Source: Malachius bipustulatus
Lineage: Eukaryota > Arthropoda > Insecta > Coleoptera > Melyridae
Reading direction: 5' to 3'
DNA: 64,000 nucleotides
Assembly: GCA_910589415.1 (NCBI GenBank)
Contig: OU342631.1
Span: 60,540,598-60,604,597, forward strand
Shown: piece by piece, positions 28,162 to 61,990 of the stretch
Layout: the number at the start of each line of letters is the position of its first letter
Numbering within the stretch: position 1 is the first letter of the stretch
Translations under genes and position numbers: made by a program
The notes under the pieces: model-generated
What the model was told of the DNA's origin: nothing
Database searches by the model: none
The model's input: only the letters and a program-made list of their open reading frames with translations

Positions 28162-31100
28162 TTAACTTTGAGAGTTTTTTAATACAATATAAAGAAGAGT
28201 TATGCAATCAAACCAAGCAGTATTTTCGTTACAAAGCTCAGACAACCTATAGACAATCGACTTCCCCTGTCCCATTCTTAGTGTTGGAATTAAAAAATAG
28301 TACCTGTTATGCCTTAAAGTTCTAGGAGGACAGTAAAAGTCGAAATGCCCAAGTACATCTGGACAATCAATGAGATTGTTATGTAATTTGAATGCAAATA
28401 TAATATCGGCTCTATTTCTGGCAGACTCTAAAGTAGAAATTTGGAATAATTTATAAGTTGAAGAAAAATTGTGATCAGTAAAATGAAGTGCATTTCCAGT
28501 TTTAAATGCCGCATAACGTAAAAACAAAGTATTTAAAGATTCTAACTTTTTTATGTCACCTCTCTCACTTGGTCTCCAGATCGTCGAGGCGTACATCAGT
28601 TTTGAGTAAATATAAGCAAAATATATACTGCGGAAAGTACTTATAGATCTAAATTTAAAAGAAAACCTCTTAACAAAGTAGATTTTTTTACGAACGTTAA
28701 TATCCAGGTAGTCTATATGAAACTTAAAAGAAAGCTTAGAATCAAAGACAACTCCCAAGTCCCTAATATGATCAACTCTCTCCAATATATTCCCTCCAAG
28801 AAAATAATCGTAAATAGGCTGATGGGATTTACCAAATCTAATGGTGAAGCACTTTTTTGTATTACACTGAAGTCCATTAACACGTTCGCTGCTACTGGCT
28901 CTTATAAAAGTCAAGTCTACACGTTATAATTGTCAACCCTTATATTTGACCTCCAGTGCTGCCGGCTCTTTGAAGAGCCGAAGAAAAAAAAAGTGCCAGC
29001 AGATAACAAAAAATTGGTTTATCATCTCTATTGAATAATAGTTACTACTTAAAAACACTATGCATGAAAATTTTCAGAAAAATATTAGTTAGCACAACTG
29101 AAGTTGAAGCTTGAAATGTGCAGCAGTGAACGTGTTAAGATTGCACCACCTTTCAAAGGAGTTAATATCTAATTGAAGGTTCATAGCATCGGTTGATGAC
29201 TCGATAGACTTAAAAATTTTTGTATCATCTGCAAAAAGAGAGATCTCACAATATTTGATGCAATATACTATATCATTAATGAAAATTAAAAATAATAAAG
29301 GGCCCATATGTGTTCCTTGGCCAACTCCTGAAAGAACTTCAATAGTAGTTGATATGTAGTTTTTTATTTTAACCATTTGTTGGCGTCCATTTAAGAAGGA
29401 TTCAAACCAAACTAAGAGATTGCCAAAAACACCAAAAGCCTCCAATTTTTTTAGCAATAAATTAAAATTGACGAGATCAAATGCTCTTGTAAAGTCTATA
29501 CATATAGAATCAACAACTTTGCCACAATTCAACTGGGATGTAATGTACTCGGAATAAACTGATAGGTTTGTAACTGTAGATCTAGACTCAAGGAATCCAT
29601 GTTGATGAGGAACTATATATTTACGAAAATACGGAAGTAACTTAGTGTACATAAGAAAGTCCAACATCTTCGCAAAAACTTTATATTTATTAATCGGTCT
29701 ATAATTGTTCACATCGAACGGATCCCCTCCCTTGAAAAATGGTGAAAGGTAAGATAATTTCCATGTCTGCGGGAAAATACCCAGTTTAACTGAAAGATTG
29801 AATAATTTCAGTAACCAATGTTTGATGGCTTCACTGCAATTAATAATTATAATTGGATGAATTTTATCTGGACCAGGACTTTGGCCAGAATTCAAATTAT
29901 TTATGCACGTTTCAATATCCTCCAAGGTGAACACAATACTGCCGATAGAGTCATTAAACTCTAAAGGTACAGCTGTTTTGCTAAGATCAACATTACGATA
30001 AATGCTTCTAAATTTACCAGCAAAAAGATTGACAATATCTTGACCGTTATCAGCCGTTTGATCATTTAGGTGAAGGGTTGACGGTATCGAATTATTAGAA
30101 CTGAGATTGTTAACATACTTAAAAAAAAATTTAGAGTTACATTTTATTGATTCTTCCGTAGATTCAAGATATAATTTTTCATCTCTATGAGCTAATAGTT
30201 TAGAATAAGCTCTATCCCTTTTAAATCTATTAAAGAAAAACCTGGACTTGTACCTTTTGTATAGTTTGTGAGAGATTTTCTTATTAATAATTGCCGCTTT
30301 CAGATCATTTGAGTACCAGTGAGGAAAAGTTCTAGATTTAGTCTTTAATGTAGGTACAAAATCATCAATTAACGTCTGAAAAATTAACTCAATATTAGTA
30401 ACACATTCATTAAACTGAATCTCACCTGAAATGCCATCAGGAATAGCGATATCATTCAACTTCTCAGAAATTTCAGTGAAATTTGCATGTTTAAAATCTA
30501 AAATAACATCATTGCATTCACATAAAGTCATAGCTGATGCTTGGAATGAAATAGATAAGGGATGATGGGCCTCGTCGCATTTTATCAAAAAGTCATTACA
30601 CAAATTAATGTCGGAGTTATAAAAGTTAGTAAAAACTAGATCTAAAATATTACCAAAAACGTTCTTATTATTATTTAGTTGAATAATATTGTATGATTTA
30701 CACCACTCAGACATAATGTGAGCAGCTTCTCTAAAATTGACATCTTTATTATAGAAATAGGCGGTAGAATAACAAGATTCATTAAACCATTCGTATCCTG
30801 GAATATTAAAGTCTCCCAGGAGACAAAACTTAGTTGTATTATCATTGACTAGGATATCACAGAGAGATGTTTGTAAACATTCTATAAATTCAGAATAATA
30901 TTCCGACTTAGAACCGGTGGGAATGTAACAAACTCCAAAAATAAAGCAAGAGTCAATAGTAAATACTTTTATAAATGATAATTCAAAAGAATTATCACTA
31001 ATGGCAATTTTCTCAAATTTAAATTTCTTATGGAGGGCAATGAGGACGCCCCCACCATCCCTTTTATCACTAGTGAACAAAGTTCTATCACATCTTATAA

Positions 31101-31281
31101 TATTATAATTAAATAAACCTAATTCTGCGTCGTTAATATCCTCGCTTAGCCAAGTTTCCGTTAGGGCAATGATGTCGTATTCCCCCAACAGACCGATACC
31201 ACTCCGAACAACGTTGAGTCTACCGCGGATACTATGAGCATTTTGATAGTATACATTAATTTGTACGGGGCTTGATAATTC
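28162..31281 (-). pseudogene. LINE ORF2 (AP endonuclease plus reverse transcriptase), split by a MITE
   Basis: The reading frame opens directly after the ORF1 stop, with no ATG. The endonuclease occupies about the first 230 residues: INVYYQNAHSIRGRL, LTETWLS (catalytic Glu), LLGDFNIPGYEW, NILDLVF and HHPLSI. The reverse transcriptase has NYRPIN, CIDFTRAFDLVN (catalytic Asp), GVGQGTHMGPLLFLIFINDI and FADDTKIF. The frame stops at 29089 inside the MITE at 28881-29134; beyond the MITE the C-terminal 250 codons continue. The MITE plus one TTAA is 258 bp, a multiple of three, and removing it restores WCNL-NGLQCNTKKC. The R of the usual NYRPI-S box and the FADD box are intact, so the copy looks young. 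No RNase H. Clade assignment to the CR1 group is inference. Confidence 0.8.
28881..29134. mobile_element. piggyBac-type MITE, 254 bp, in TTAA
   Basis: Flanked by TTAA at 28877-28880 and 29135-29138. The terminal inverted repeats are CACGTTCGCTGCT and AGCAGTGAACGTG (one mismatch). TTAA duplication plus a CAC-type end is the piggyBac signature. A second internal inverted repeat is GGCTCTT/AAGAGCC at 28965-28978. No transposase. Confidence 0.8.
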
Positions 31282-35517: not shown

Positions 35518-37290
35518 ATATTGATTGATATTGATATTGAGGGTGTCAGATGCGCTGCGACCTATTACAGATCTATTGTGCCCCCTCTTCTCTGCTCCTT
35601 TGGAGTATATTCCCTTCATTGAAGCAGCCTCTCCAACTCCGCTTCCCTTAGGAATTTCAGGATTTGAAGGGGATCAAGGTCGGGCAAAGCCCCCCCGTTG
35701 AGCTGGTGTTGGCCCAGAACATCGTTTCTTTCACGTTCTAGGGCTTCGCAGTTCATCAATAGGTGACGAGGCGTCTCGTTTTCTTCCCTGCAGAGTCTGC
35801 AAACGCCATCTTTTTCTATACCAAGTTTCCTCAGGTGTTCATTGAGCTTGCAATGACCTGTTAGGAATCCTGTTAGCATTCTGAATTTCTGAGACTTCCT
35901 TTGTTGAGGGTCAGGAGTTTCCTTGACCTTTCTCGGTTAAAGTTCCCGAGGAGCTCTTTGGATTGTCTCAATCCTGAGAGGTTATTCCAATGGATTTCTC
36001 TCAGTTTTTCTTCTTCTTTCCGAAGTTCTGCCTTGAAAAACGTGTCTTCAAGGCTACAGAATGGTTCTGGTCCTATAAAGGGCGTCGATGCTCCTTTTCT
36101 TGCCAATGAGTGGGCACGTTCGTTTCTCTCAATCCCAGTGTGTCCTGGTATCCATTTGAGGTGAATTTTGTTCTCTCTGCCTAGTTTATTGAGTTTTTGT
36201 AGGCAGTTCCATGCCATTTTTGAGCTGATGATAGGGGAGCTCAGCGTCTTTATGGCTGCTTGACTGTCTGTCAGTATTGCTATTTTCCTATTTTTATAGT
36301 TTCTGTCGAGGTTTATTTGGGTACATACTTCTATTGCGTACAGTTCCGCTTGAAGTATGCTTGGGGATGTTCCCATAGGCTCGGAGTAGTTGGTGCCTGG
36401 CCCATATACTCCTGCCCCAGTTCCCTCGGTGGCCTTTGAGCCGTCTGTGTACCATTTTATTGTACCTTCTTTGAGAGTGTGAATGGATGTGTTGCTCCAT
36501 TCTTCTTTCGTAGACAGTTCCATGATGAAGTTTCTCTTGAAGCTGAATTTCTTGACAGTTTTGTCTTTTGGCATTATCAGGAGGTTTTTACAGATGTTCA
36601 GGGGTTGATTCCCCTCGGTCCGTAGTCCCCCCCCCCTGATCCCCATTCTTGACATTCTGAGTTGAGCCTCTGCGGCACTTCTCTCAATCACTAAGTGCAG
36701 TGGTGTGAGATCTAGAATTACTTCCAACGCTGCTGTTGGGCATGTTCTCATTGCTCCTGTGATGCAGAGGCATGCAAGTCTCTGGATCTTCTCGAGTGTT
36801 TTCCTCGCTGTTATTAGCTTTGTCCTCTTGTACCAGACGACCGCTCCGTATGTGATGATGGGTCTCACTAGCATGGTGTACATCCAGCGTAAAATGGATG
36901 GGTTACAACCCCACGCATTCCCCGCCATTCTCCTGCACACCATGAGTACGGATGTGGCCTTACTTACTGTTGCACTTAAGTGCTTGTTCCACATTAGCTT
37001 CTTATCCAGTGTTATTCCCAGATATTTTACTTCTTCCTTCCATTCTAACTCGACTCCATTTAAGTCGATGGTTTTGAGGTTTGGAAGCTTGTTTTTTCTT
37101 GTGAATGGTATCAGTGTAGTTTTTGTAGGATTGATGTTGAGTCCTATTTCTTGGCACCATTTCAAGGTTATCTTTAACCCCCTCTGTACTATGTCGCAGA
37201 GTGTTCCTTCAAATTTTCCTCTGGCCATGATGACGATGTCATCGGCATACCCGATGCAGGTAATGCCGTTCTCGGTGAGTAGTAGTCAAC
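35518..37290 (-). pseudogene. 5'-truncated LINE with RNase H (R1/LOA/I group)
   Basis: The minus-strand copy starts just before the reverse transcriptase YADD box (GYADDIVIMARG near 37262-37225) and continues in an open frame of 451 codons to 35873. In order: RT C-terminal part and thumb (VKYLGITLDKKLMWNKHL); RNase H at about residues 255-380 (WYTDGSK, LQAELYAIE, LTDSQAAI, IPGHTGIERNERAHSLARKG); then an overlapping frame at 35879-35616 with TGHCKLNEHLRKLG and the zinc-finger-like CRLCREENETPRHLLMNC. The last catalytic Asp of RNase H (usually NERAD) is His. The 3' end carries GGCACAATAGATCTG...GGTCGCAGCGCATC and an ATATCA-repeat tail at 35518-35545. Confidence 0.75.
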
Positions 37291-38734: not shown

Positions 38735-53538
<14,804 letters not shown>

Positions 53539-55345: not shown

Positions 55346-55529
55346 ATAAAAATAATGTTACAACAAACCGTAGGTAGGTAGGTCTTAATGAGTATAAAGA
55401 CAAATCAATAGCCTGTCGTATTGGAGTCGGGTTTTAACCCATCGTCCTGACAGTTGTCAAGTCTGGAGTGCCCGAGAACCCAAATAAAGAGTTTTCGACT
55501 CAGGCAGCAACACACATCCAACCAGACCA

Positions 55530-55586
55530 CCAAAAGCACGGACGGCCGTTTCGGTCTCATTAGACCTCGTCAGCGTACTATATTGG
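55530..55586 (-). ncRNA. Hammerhead ribozyme, copy 1
   Basis: On the minus strand: CCAA, TAT, AGTACG, then the core CTGACGA, stem II GGTCT-AATG-AGACC, then GAAA, a self-complementary stem III ACGGCCGT, the cleavage triplet GTC and CGTGCT, T, TTGG. Stem Ia pairs AGTACG with CGTGCT (one G-U); stem Ib pairs CCAA with TTGG. Predicted cut after the C at 55541. All core bases fit the hammerhead consensus. Confidence 0.88.
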
Positions 55587-55980
55587 AGAGTCCGGAAGGA
55601 TATGAATCGCTGCATGAATCGAAAACCCTATATGGAATCTCATTCAACCGGTTACCAGTGACCTCGAGACAGAGCGACATCTATCAAGAGAAACAACAGG
55701 CTCCCAGCCAAAACAAAACTCCAATGTGTATTATGGGTTGCAGACACTCCAGGGGCTACGAGACTGACATCAAATATGCATATTAAAAAGCCGAAGTATA
55801 CTCAAAAGTCACAACAAACCGTAGGTAGGTAGGTCTTAATGAGTATAAAGACAAATCAATAGCCTGTCGTATTGGAGTCGGGTTTTAACCCATCGTCCTG
55901 ACAGTTGTCAAGTCTGGAGTGCCCGAGAACCCAAATAAAGAGTTTTCGACTCAGGCAGCAACACACATCCAACCAGACCA

Positions 55981-56037
55981 CCAAAAGCACGGACGGCCGT
56001 TTCGGTCTCATTAGACCTCGTCAGCGTACTATATTGG
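55981..56037 (-). ncRNA. Hammerhead ribozyme, copy 2
   Basis: No difference from copy 1 was seen by eye, 451 bp downstream. Predicted cut after the C at 55992. Cleavage at successive copies would release 451-nt monomers. Confidence 0.88.
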
Positions 56038-56431
56038 AGAGTCCGGAAGGATATGAATCGCTGCATGAATCGAAAACCCTATATGGAATCTCATTCAACC
56101 GGTTACCAGTGACCTCGAGACAGAGCGACATCTATCAAGAGAAACAACAGGCTCCCAGCCAAAACAAAACTCCAATGTGTATTATGGGTTGCAGACACTC
56201 CAGGGGCTACGAGACTGACATCAAATATGCATATTAAAAAGCCGAAGTATACTCAAAAGTCACAACAAACCGTAGGTAGGTAGGTCTTAATGAGTATAAA
56301 GACAAATCAATAGCCTGTCGTATTGGAGTCGGGTTTTAACCCATCGTCCTGACAGTTGTCAAGTCTGGAGTGCCCGAGAACCCAAATAAAGAGTTTTCGA
56401 CTCAGGCAGCAACACACATCCAACCAGACCA

Positions 56432-56488
56432 CCAAAAGCACGGACGGCCGTTTCGGTCTCATTAGACCTCGTCAGCGTACTATATTGG
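56432..56488 (-). ncRNA. Hammerhead ribozyme, copy 3
   Basis: No difference from copies 1 and 2 was seen by eye. Predicted cut after the C at 56443. Confidence 0.88.
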
Positions 56489-56824
56489 AGAGTCCGGAAG
56501 GATATGAATCGCTGCATGAATCGAAAACCCTATATGGAATCTCATTCAACCGGTTACCAGTGACCTCGAGACAGAGCGACATCTATCAAGAGAAACAACA
56601 GGCTCCCAGCCAAAACAAAACTCCAATGTGTATTATGGGTTGCAGACACTCCAGGGGCTACGAGACTGACATCAAATATGCATATTAAAAAGCCGAAGTA
56701 TACTCAAAAGTCACAACAAACCGTAGGTAGGTAGGTCTTAATGAGTATAAAGACAAATCAATAGCCTGTCGTATTGGAGTCGGGTTTTAACCCATCGTCC
56801 TGACAGTTGTCAAGTCCGGACTCT

Positions 56825-56881
56825 CCAATATAGTACGCTGACGAGGTCTAATGAGACCGAAACGGCCGTCCGTGCTTTTGG
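56825..56881 (+). ncRNA. Hammerhead ribozyme in the inverted copy
   Basis: The same 57-nt motif on the + strand in the inverted segment: CTGACGA at 56838-56844, stem II 56845-56858, GAAA 56859-56862, GTC ending at 56870. It would be active only in RNA transcribed from the + strand. Confidence 0.88.
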
Positions 56882-57095
56882 TGGTCTGGTTGGATGTGTG
56901 TTGCTGCCTGAGTCGAAAACTCTTTATTTGGGTTCTCGGGCACTCCAGACTTGACAACTGTCAGGACGATGGGTTAAAACCCGACTCCAATACGACAGGC
57001 TATTGATTTGTCTTTATACTCATTAAGACCTACCTACCTACGGTTTGTTGTGACTTTTGAGTATACTTCGGCTTTTTAATATAAAAATAATGTTA

Positions 57096-61513: not shown

Positions 61514-61990
61514 CATACAGGGTGTTAGTTAAGTACGGGGCCAAACTCCAAGGGGTGCTTCCTTGAGTGATTTTAAGAAGAAAAGTTCAAATAAACATGG
61601 GTCCGAAAATGCATATTTTTCAAGATAAGTACAGGGTGTCAAACTTTTATTTTTTTTTCTCGAAAACAAAGCAAGATATGAAAAAAACTCAAGAGATAAA
61701 ATAGTTGTATTTTTAGTTGCTTAATTCGAAAAAAATACAAAATTAAAAAAAAGTCAGTGGCGCCCAATTTTTTAATCAAAAATATTAGTTAGACTGTCTT
61801 CCGGGACGCCACTGGAATTAATAATTTTAATCTAATTGGGGCTAAATTACCCTCTTGTTAAAGTTTGACACCCTGTATCTTGAAAAATATGCATTTTCGG
61901 ACCCATGTTTATTTGAACTTTTCTTCTTAAAATCACTCAAGGAAGCACCTCTTGGAGTTTGGCCCCGTACTTAACTAACACCCTGTATAT
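61514..61990. mobile_element. Palindromic element with double TACAGGGTGT boxes
   Basis: The ends CATACAGGGTGTTAGTTAAG and CTTAACTAACACCCTGTAT are perfect inverted repeats continuing for about 125 bp on each side, including CATGGGTCCGAAAATGCATA. A second pair, TACAGGGTGTCAAAC and GTTTGACACCCTGTA (with one base difference), lies inside. About 477 bp, no ORF. Confidence 0.8.

Follow-up and report, generated by a model that had tools for sequence, protein, structure and literature searches.

Sequence features of the 64,000 nt stretch of Malachius bipustulatus DNA analysed here (the window), and of related copies elsewhere in the genome, make it highly probable that the array at 55346–57095 is a retrozyme insertion, with a 451 nt non-coding unit carrying a type I hammerhead ribozyme, that was mobilised in trans by a Penelope-like element (PLE) of the same genome through double-ended, target-primed reverse transcription of a circular RNA. 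As read from the sequence, insertions of this family have two arms, two fixed ends that occur once each, 12 bp flanking repeats, a palindrome-leaning target, one haplotype per insertion and a hairpin in common with PLEs. By its testable features the element is a retrozyme and, since the unit holds no reading frame, not itself a PLE, yet it appears to move as PLEs do.

Structure of the Array

The features are given below, position 1 of the unit being the nucleotide that follows the cleavage site, itself placed after GUC by reading.

55346..55360, no strand: left flanking direct repeat, the target site duplication (about 13 bp once the 2 bp in common with the element end are subtracted)
55361..56820, minus strand: antisense arm of 3.24 units, with minus as its sense strand and its outer end, an RNA 3′ end, at unit position ~181 (site 1)
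55379..55396, minus strand: PLE-type hairpin truncated at site 1 by the outer end, leaving its 5′ strand and the start of its loop
55535..55579, minus strand: type I hammerhead, copy 1 (RF00163, 25.9 bits)
55797..55847, minus strand: full hairpin (UAUACUCA ... UGAGUAUA), far end by reading
55986..56030, minus strand: type I hammerhead, copy 2 (RF00163, 25.9 bits)
56248..56298, minus strand: full hairpin, far end by reading
56437..56481, minus strand: type I hammerhead, copy 3 (RF00163, 25.9 bits)
56699..56749, minus strand: full hairpin, far end by reading
56815..57082, plus strand: sense arm of 0.59 unit, inverted relative to the first arm; its outer end, which has the 32 bp tail, is at unit position 212 (site 2)
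56832..56876, plus strand: type I hammerhead in the inverted arm (RF00163, 25.9 bits)
57015..57065, plus strand: full hairpin in the inverted arm, far end by reading, followed by the tail end at 57082
57081..57095, no strand: right flanking direct repeat
61670..61860, minus strand: paralogous copy, without the insertion, of the site occupied at another locus of the family, L040 (187/194 identical)

Three complete 451 bp units lie between 55360 and 56712 with no differences among them, followed by a partial fourth unit of 108 bp that has a single mismatch, at the inner junction (TRF score of the array 2915; 451 bp unit, 3.2 copies). The insertion is framed by a 15 bp direct repeat, ATAAAAATAATGTTA, at 55346–55360 and 57081–57095; the net duplication is about 13 bp because two bases of the repeat overlap the element end (by reading). 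At the inner junction, 6 bp are common to both arms. Neither end of the insertion has a poly-A stretch, and a short CCTA-CCTA-CCTA lies just inside site 1 (both by reading). No open reading frame of at least 120 aa, scanned from stop to stop, overlaps the array, and by that test the unit is non-coding.

A first-pass annotation, made from the sequence alone, had described three identical 451 bp units and part of a fourth, together with an inverted piece and a 15 bp flanking repeat, all of which the coordinates confirm, and a complete hammerhead core in each full unit, which was borne out by the RF00163 match in every one of them. Its view of a recent event is supported for the window copy, the units of which are identical; the matches listed for the element across the genome show 93–99% identity, apart from the window's own and some short pieces of full identity. 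Beyond that description, the inverted piece is a regular second arm and not debris, apparently primed from the other end of the break, and the outer ends of the insertion occupy two fixed positions.

The retrozyme is situated about 2 kb downstream of the last exon found of an NAD(P) transhydrogenase gene (AlaDh_PNT_C and PNTB domains; 39613–40038 and 53077–53538, plus strand). The window also carries LINE-type reverse transcriptase (RT) frames with weak endonuclease/RNase H matches (40368–43250, 29089–31281 and 35873–37285, minus strand), one of them 960 aa long, which share this stretch with the transhydrogenase gene.

Hammerhead Ribozyme

Each of the four hammerheads in the window has a complete type I core (Rfam RF00163, E = 0.0015 each). 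The score of 25.9 is below the Rfam gathering score of 34, so a default scan listed nothing. The hammerheads of the full units are on the minus strand of the window, which is therefore the sense strand of the element. In the predicted fold, stem I contains an internal loop, and self-cleavage of the retrozyme RNA is predicted.

When the genome (544 Mb in 52 contigs) was searched for other copies, a check that the first-pass annotation had proposed, a 38-base hammerhead pattern allowing up to three mismatches was matched 578 times, compared with none for the reversed control, ruling out a chance hammerhead. The 100 places listed, of the 578, form 54 clusters, which would put the family at some 300 loci genome-wide; among the places listed, a minus copy is followed within 3 kb by a plus copy 12 times, and the reverse order never occurs.

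Anatomy of Dispersed Insertions

Forty loci, including that of the window, were read. They were assembled by manual merging from the listed portion of 309 matches, in a search that scored 40 of 428 candidates, and are a non-random sample that leans toward long, young copies. A second, neighbouring piece was set aside in each of L009 and L029. Flanks and junctions differ among the 40 loci, which rules out an assembly artefact.

An antisense arm followed by a sense arm was found in 33 of the 40 loci and the reverse order in none, so that the RNA 3′ sides of the arms face outward. The outer ends fall at two positions of the unit, about 180 (site 1) and about 212 (site 2), an offset of 32 bp. Ends were typed within broad intervals (170–187 for site 1, 207–226 for site 2), with L037, L041 and L044 typed on short fragments outside the aligned arm. 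Typing succeeded at both ends in 31 of the 40 loci, and all 31 have one site 1 and one site 2; of the other nine, eight had one end typed and one had none. In the 31 typed loci, site 1 forms the left end 16 times and the right end 15 times.

Direct repeats of 11–15 bp with at most one mismatch flank 29 of the 40 insertions (11 are without a passing repeat) and are exactly 12 bp in 19. They are 83% AT overall. The bases just outside them follow a pattern, RWC on the left at 16 of 28 loci (1.4 expected from nearby positions), GWY on the right at 13 (1.5 expected), and both at 8 (0.08 expected); L029, where the 11 bp repeat looked like chance, was omitted from the 29 loci for this count. The target, RWC/12 nt/GWY, thus tends to a palindrome.

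The inner junctions are scattered over the unit and have small overlaps or filler. Arm pieces reach 9.48 units (L017), and 59 of 77 are longer than one unit. Inner ends within 20 nt of the ribozyme cut number 11 of 66, against 5.9 expected, which is weak evidence for a piling up of cDNA ends at the cut, a pattern that would favour linear monomers. No clear relation between arm length and start site emerged: the arm ending at site 2 is the longer one in 20 of 28 loci, taken from the 31 typed (sign test, p = 0.036), but the Wilcoxon test gave p = 0.21.

The window itself holds an empty site, that of L040, in which the alignment block crossing the junction is identical at 60 of 60 positions and the 12 bp repeat TAAAATTATTAA is present as a single copy. 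Among 29 joined-flank queries, searched in the stretches read, convincing junction-spanning alignments came from L040 and L039 only, the empty paralogous sites of L039 being diverged (83–84%); L032 aligned poorly and L038 matched itself. L019 interrupts the reading frame of a PLE; the insertion falls after residue ~60 and before residue ~67 of the query fragment.

One Haplotype per Insertion

The mean difference between units was 0.49% within an arm (356 pairs), 0.58% between the arms of one locus (288 pairs) and 2.6% between loci (26,028 pairs). Twenty-six positions are polymorphic among loci; pairs of loci differ at a mean of 9.45 of these, and 20 of 780 pairs are identical. The two arms of a locus differ at a polymorphism with both states known elsewhere in only one of 31 comparable loci, L018, where two templates are possible (L009, L029 and seven loci without two arms of at least 100 bp were dropped from the 40). 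Fixed differences between arms number 21 in all, of which 20 fail this known-polymorphism test; four are in L010, most of them at or beyond its site 2 end. Thus each insertion, including both of its arms, was in nearly all cases copied from one monomer sequence, the haplotype being shared within loci.

A single-monomer template is most simply explained by a circle copied several times round, and the haplotype identity within loci lends support to the first-pass annotation's picture of one inserted unit made from a template copied more than once around. Alternatively, the same PLE route could have used a linear, multimeric transcript of an older array, with no need of the hammerhead for insertion. 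An older array of near-identical units would give a near-identical daughter, leaving a trace similar to that of a circle, and a PLE of the anole used uncleaved RNA in vitro, where hammerhead mutants did not lower insertion (PMC11167929). If the template were such a multimer, however, then daughters should inherit the single-unit variants of their source. Only 10 of 147 within-locus minor states recur as minor states at another locus (L009 and L029 dropped), and, of 152 minor states (L009, L029 and L041 dropped), 126 are private and 135 are found in a single unit. The length of some arms, up to 9.48 units, also speaks against a linear template, which we regard as rather unlikely. Since 135 of the 152 minor states are confined to one unit, there has been little later homogenisation.

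PLEs of the Genome and a Shared Hairpin

Frames with a GIY-YIG domain are numerous in the genome (150 of 775 candidates scored); long ones are often 823–855 aa, and many are arranged in tandem, minus then plus. A fragment of one of these PLEs gave 787 hits in a wider search; among the 120 listed, the minority that carry an organism name all come from beetles, such as Coccinella and Diabrotica. Four types of PLE were compared. One, F1, has RT and GIY-YIG on one frame, and in a second, F2 (L071–L074 and L079), they were seen on frames of two copies. A hammerhead-like core adjoins the ORF start of F2 (by reading, with no Rfam score). F2 has alternative ends, ...TATTCG and, 32 bp further, ...CCTATAT, and in L072 and L073, the two copies in which both were read, each end occurs once, with 12 bp repeats (by reading). 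The alternative ends of F1 are 39 bp apart (by reading).

The retrozyme tail and the F2 tail have a 12-mer, TTTGAGTATACT, in common and in the same register. When the two tails were compared, after the 12-mer match was known, 19 of 32 positions matched, and 40 of 200,000 shuffles were as good. The 12-mer was the only match of the unit to 30 PLE loci (E = 4.2 in that search), and the retrozyme resembles F2 in the hairpin and tail only. Upstream of the 12-mer, both carry TATACTCA, a short spacer and GACCTA, an arrangement that allows UAUACUCA to pair with UGAGUAUA. Site 1 is in the loop of this hairpin and site 2 just past the stem.

A third PLE, L070, apparently of the 823 aa type, has UAUACCCA and UGGGUAUA as its hairpin arms. 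The hairpin UAUACYCA...UGRGUAUA is therefore common to the retrozyme and two PLE types of the genome, with covariation. Across the genome, stems with U-A at the variable pair number 1154, C-G 72, U-G 2 and C-A 4, all reversed controls giving 0; these are counts of copies, not of independent events, and the 1154 include the retrozyme's own copies. The C-G stems recur every 3374 bp at an array of the 823 aa PLE on contig C6. The short 5′ motif of the hairpin by itself has 2252 matches in the genome, compared with 10 for the control.

A regular-expression scan of the PLE stretches read found the hairpin in L070, L072, L073, L074 and L079, and did not find its sequence in F1 or F3 loci. F1 (L051–L069) folds an analogous hairpin, GCCGUA/UACGGC, which spans its two ends, which suggests that the start hairpin varies among PLE types while its layout stays the same. 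Within the retrozyme unit, the hairpin region (145–212) is the least variable of three regions (0.22%, compared with 1.54% for the hammerhead and 2.99% for the rest). PLEs with RT and GIY-YIG, the full form that the first-pass annotation had proposed looking for, are thus present elsewhere in the genome.

Several other features of these PLEs were observed. A number of F1 copies (among L051–L069) end in (TA)n stretches. In F2 (L079, 100–200, and L071–L074), a stretch resembling an intron, GTGAGT...CACTTGCAG, runs right up to the 5′ strand of stem I of the hammerhead (by reading), so that splicing would alter the surroundings of the ribozyme. Contig C11 (84 kb) has at least 24 GIY-YIG matches, about 3327 bp apart within each run, 6 on the minus strand then 18 on the plus strand, a head-to-tail PLE array with one switch of orientation, as if copied by rolling circle from both ends.

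Other Hammerhead and Hairpin Families

A second tandem family, with a spacing of 461–462 bp, bears the retrozyme hairpin and is also arranged minus then plus (C1:7372706–7379554 and C1:27041322–27044106). The best Rfam hammerheads of the genome reach 60.1 bits (74 of 73,468 candidates scored), and mostly belong to another family with a unit of about 320 bp, found at C1:2206015–2207019 and elsewhere, mostly at 58.7 bits; one member, at C2:60609271, is about 4.7 kb beyond the window. On C1, this family shows five minus-then-plus pairs within 3 kb and no reverse pairs (by eye). Of the places listed for it on C1, 23 lie below 17.7 Mb, and none of these has a match to the hairpin motif within 10 kb (by eye); the family may use another PLE.

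Proposed Mechanism of Insertion

In the reading we favour, a tandem copy would be transcribed and the transcript cut by the hammerhead into 451 nt monomers, each closed into a circle, probably by the host tRNA ligase as reported for other animal retrozymes. A PLE reverse transcriptase-endonuclease, acting as a symmetric pair, would recognise the hairpin UAUACYCA...UGRGUAUA and make a staggered cut with 12 nt 3′ overhangs at RWC/12 AT-rich nt/GWY. Both 3′ ends would then prime on the same kind of template, at site 1 (~180, in the loop) and site 2 (~212); each cDNA would go round the circle, up to about 9.5 times, and the two would be joined through short overlaps or filler to leave two inverted arms between the repeats. 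From the sequence we infer that the hammerhead cleaves, circles form, a PLE protein is the enzyme, both 3′ overhangs serve as primers and cDNA synthesis proceeds round the circle.

Twin priming, for which LINE-1 is the known precedent, or self-priming at one nick might also yield inverted arms, with no priming from both ends of a break. Self-priming on an antisense template has been proposed for PLE palindromes (PMC3846280). Both outer ends of the retrozyme insertions are, however, RNA 3′ ends at fixed sites, the inner junctions are scattered over the unit, the target leans to a palindrome, and a PLE extends both strands in vitro (PMC11167929); an origin at a single nick is accordingly judged improbable.

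Plain satellite DNA spread by unequal crossing-over, with a hammerhead present by chance, might explain some long arms, such as the 9.48 units in L017, but is extremely unlikely given dispersed loci with 12 bp repeats, two fixed ends, an empty site and minor states mostly confined to one unit; the repeats and fixed ends refute it as the main mode, and the long arrays without target duplications that are typical of satellites were not seen, although later expansion of single arrays is possible. Carriage by a LINE, as a SINE-like passenger, could draw on the LINE-type frames in the window, on a review that leaves LINEs open as mobilisers (PMC11722881) and on the short CCTA-CCTA-CCTA inside site 1, yet it can practically be dismissed, since each typed insertion has two alternative fixed 3′ ends 32 bp apart, and not one with 5′ truncation, a second arm of equal rank and a hairpin in common with PLEs, with no poly-A at either end of the window insertion.

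Within the favoured mechanism of double-ended priming on a circle, we suggest tentatively, at slightly less than even chances, that a single RNA circle is read simultaneously by both halves of a symmetric PLE RT pair. Priming from the two overhangs of one 12 nt break would occur at separate points of the same hairpin, and the enzymes would chase each other round the circle, a mode that would also make the PLEs' own head-to-tail arrays. The rule of one end of each kind and the rule of one haplotype per insertion would both follow from this.

Comparison with Known Elements

Animal non-LTR retrozymes were defined by Cervera and de la Pena (2020, PMC7229834), for whom PLEs were strong candidates as mobilisers because of shared traits and co-occurrence. 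Animal retrozymes give rise to linear and circular RNA monomers and have tandem repeats of about 150–450 bp, a published range that the 451 bp unit exceeds by 1 bp, and it is slightly longer than the RNAs described for animal retrozymes, of 170–400 nt (PMC7229834). A type I hammerhead with a complete core was found in four places, each scoring below the gathering score. What differs from the published animal retrozymes is that the tie to PLEs comes from where the insertions end, from their target motif and two-arm layout, and from a hairpin that PLEs also carry; the inverted second arm seen here is not part of the account consulted in PMC7229834.

The likeness to PLEs, as reported for Poseidon of Anolis (PMC11167929) and Penelope of Adineta vaga (PMC3846280), includes inverted terminal arms with an optional tail of 30–40 bp on one, AT-rich targets and tandem copies. 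A tail of 31 bp is described on one of the inverted ends in A. vaga (PMC3846280); here, inverted arms with the tail on one were present in 31 of 31 typed loci of the 40. Short target duplications in AT-rich DNA were found at 29 of the 40 loci, usually of 12 bp, compared with 8–10 bp in A. vaga (PMC3846280). A PLE was shown to initiate reverse transcription internally, at two neighbouring sites that correspond to the genomic tail, and in vitro it cuts and extends both strands without a requirement for hammerhead cleavage (PMC11167929); the candidate counterpart in the retrozyme is the two fixed genomic ends in the PLE-shared hairpin. The Anolis PLE also has a hammerhead (PMC11167929), and the main text of that paper has no words beginning with circular or retrozyme. 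Unlike the minimal form of PLEs, the retrozyme hammerhead is predicted to have an internal loop in stem I, and the unit lacks an RT and GIY-YIG frame of its own, PLEs with both being present elsewhere in the genome. The two identities offered by the first-pass annotation, animal retrozyme or non-autonomous PLE, were therefore each right in part: the sequence is that of a retrozyme and the insertion signature that of a PLE, without the PLE's own RT/GIY-YIG.

Plant LTR retrozymes (PMC4918200; PMC7229834) are likewise non-autonomous and cut by a hammerhead, with circular RNA as a proposed intermediate. They differ in having a type III hammerhead, LTRs with PBS and PPT, and 4 bp duplications, and are probably mobilised by Gypsy elements (PMC7229834). 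Hammerhead satellites of newts, schistosomes and cave crickets (PMC2837043, PMC7229834) are tandem repeats of similar size; unlike these, members of the present family are short insertions scattered through the genome, which have target repeats and two defined ends.

Significance

The enzyme that moves animal retrozymes is left unsettled in two reviews, one of which leaves both LINEs and PLEs open (PMC11722881) and the other of which names PLEs and Terminons as likely candidates (PMC7761336). The insertion ends, the target motif and the shared hairpin with its matched stem changes point to PLEs, and even to particular PLE types. Neither two-ended, PLE-type insertions nor a shared start hairpin was described for a retrozyme in the open-access journal literature searched. 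The sequence evidence regarding the mobiliser is unusually direct.

Retrozyme copies provide a simple natural record of the PLE reaction, as the unit is short, young copies are many and both ends are readable. They make three questions testable: what the start signal of the PLE RT is, whether a single RNA is the template for priming at both strands of the break, and what purpose the hammerhead serves. If the rolling-circle, double-ended mode is true, then the hammerhead of PLEs would gain a role, that of making circles.
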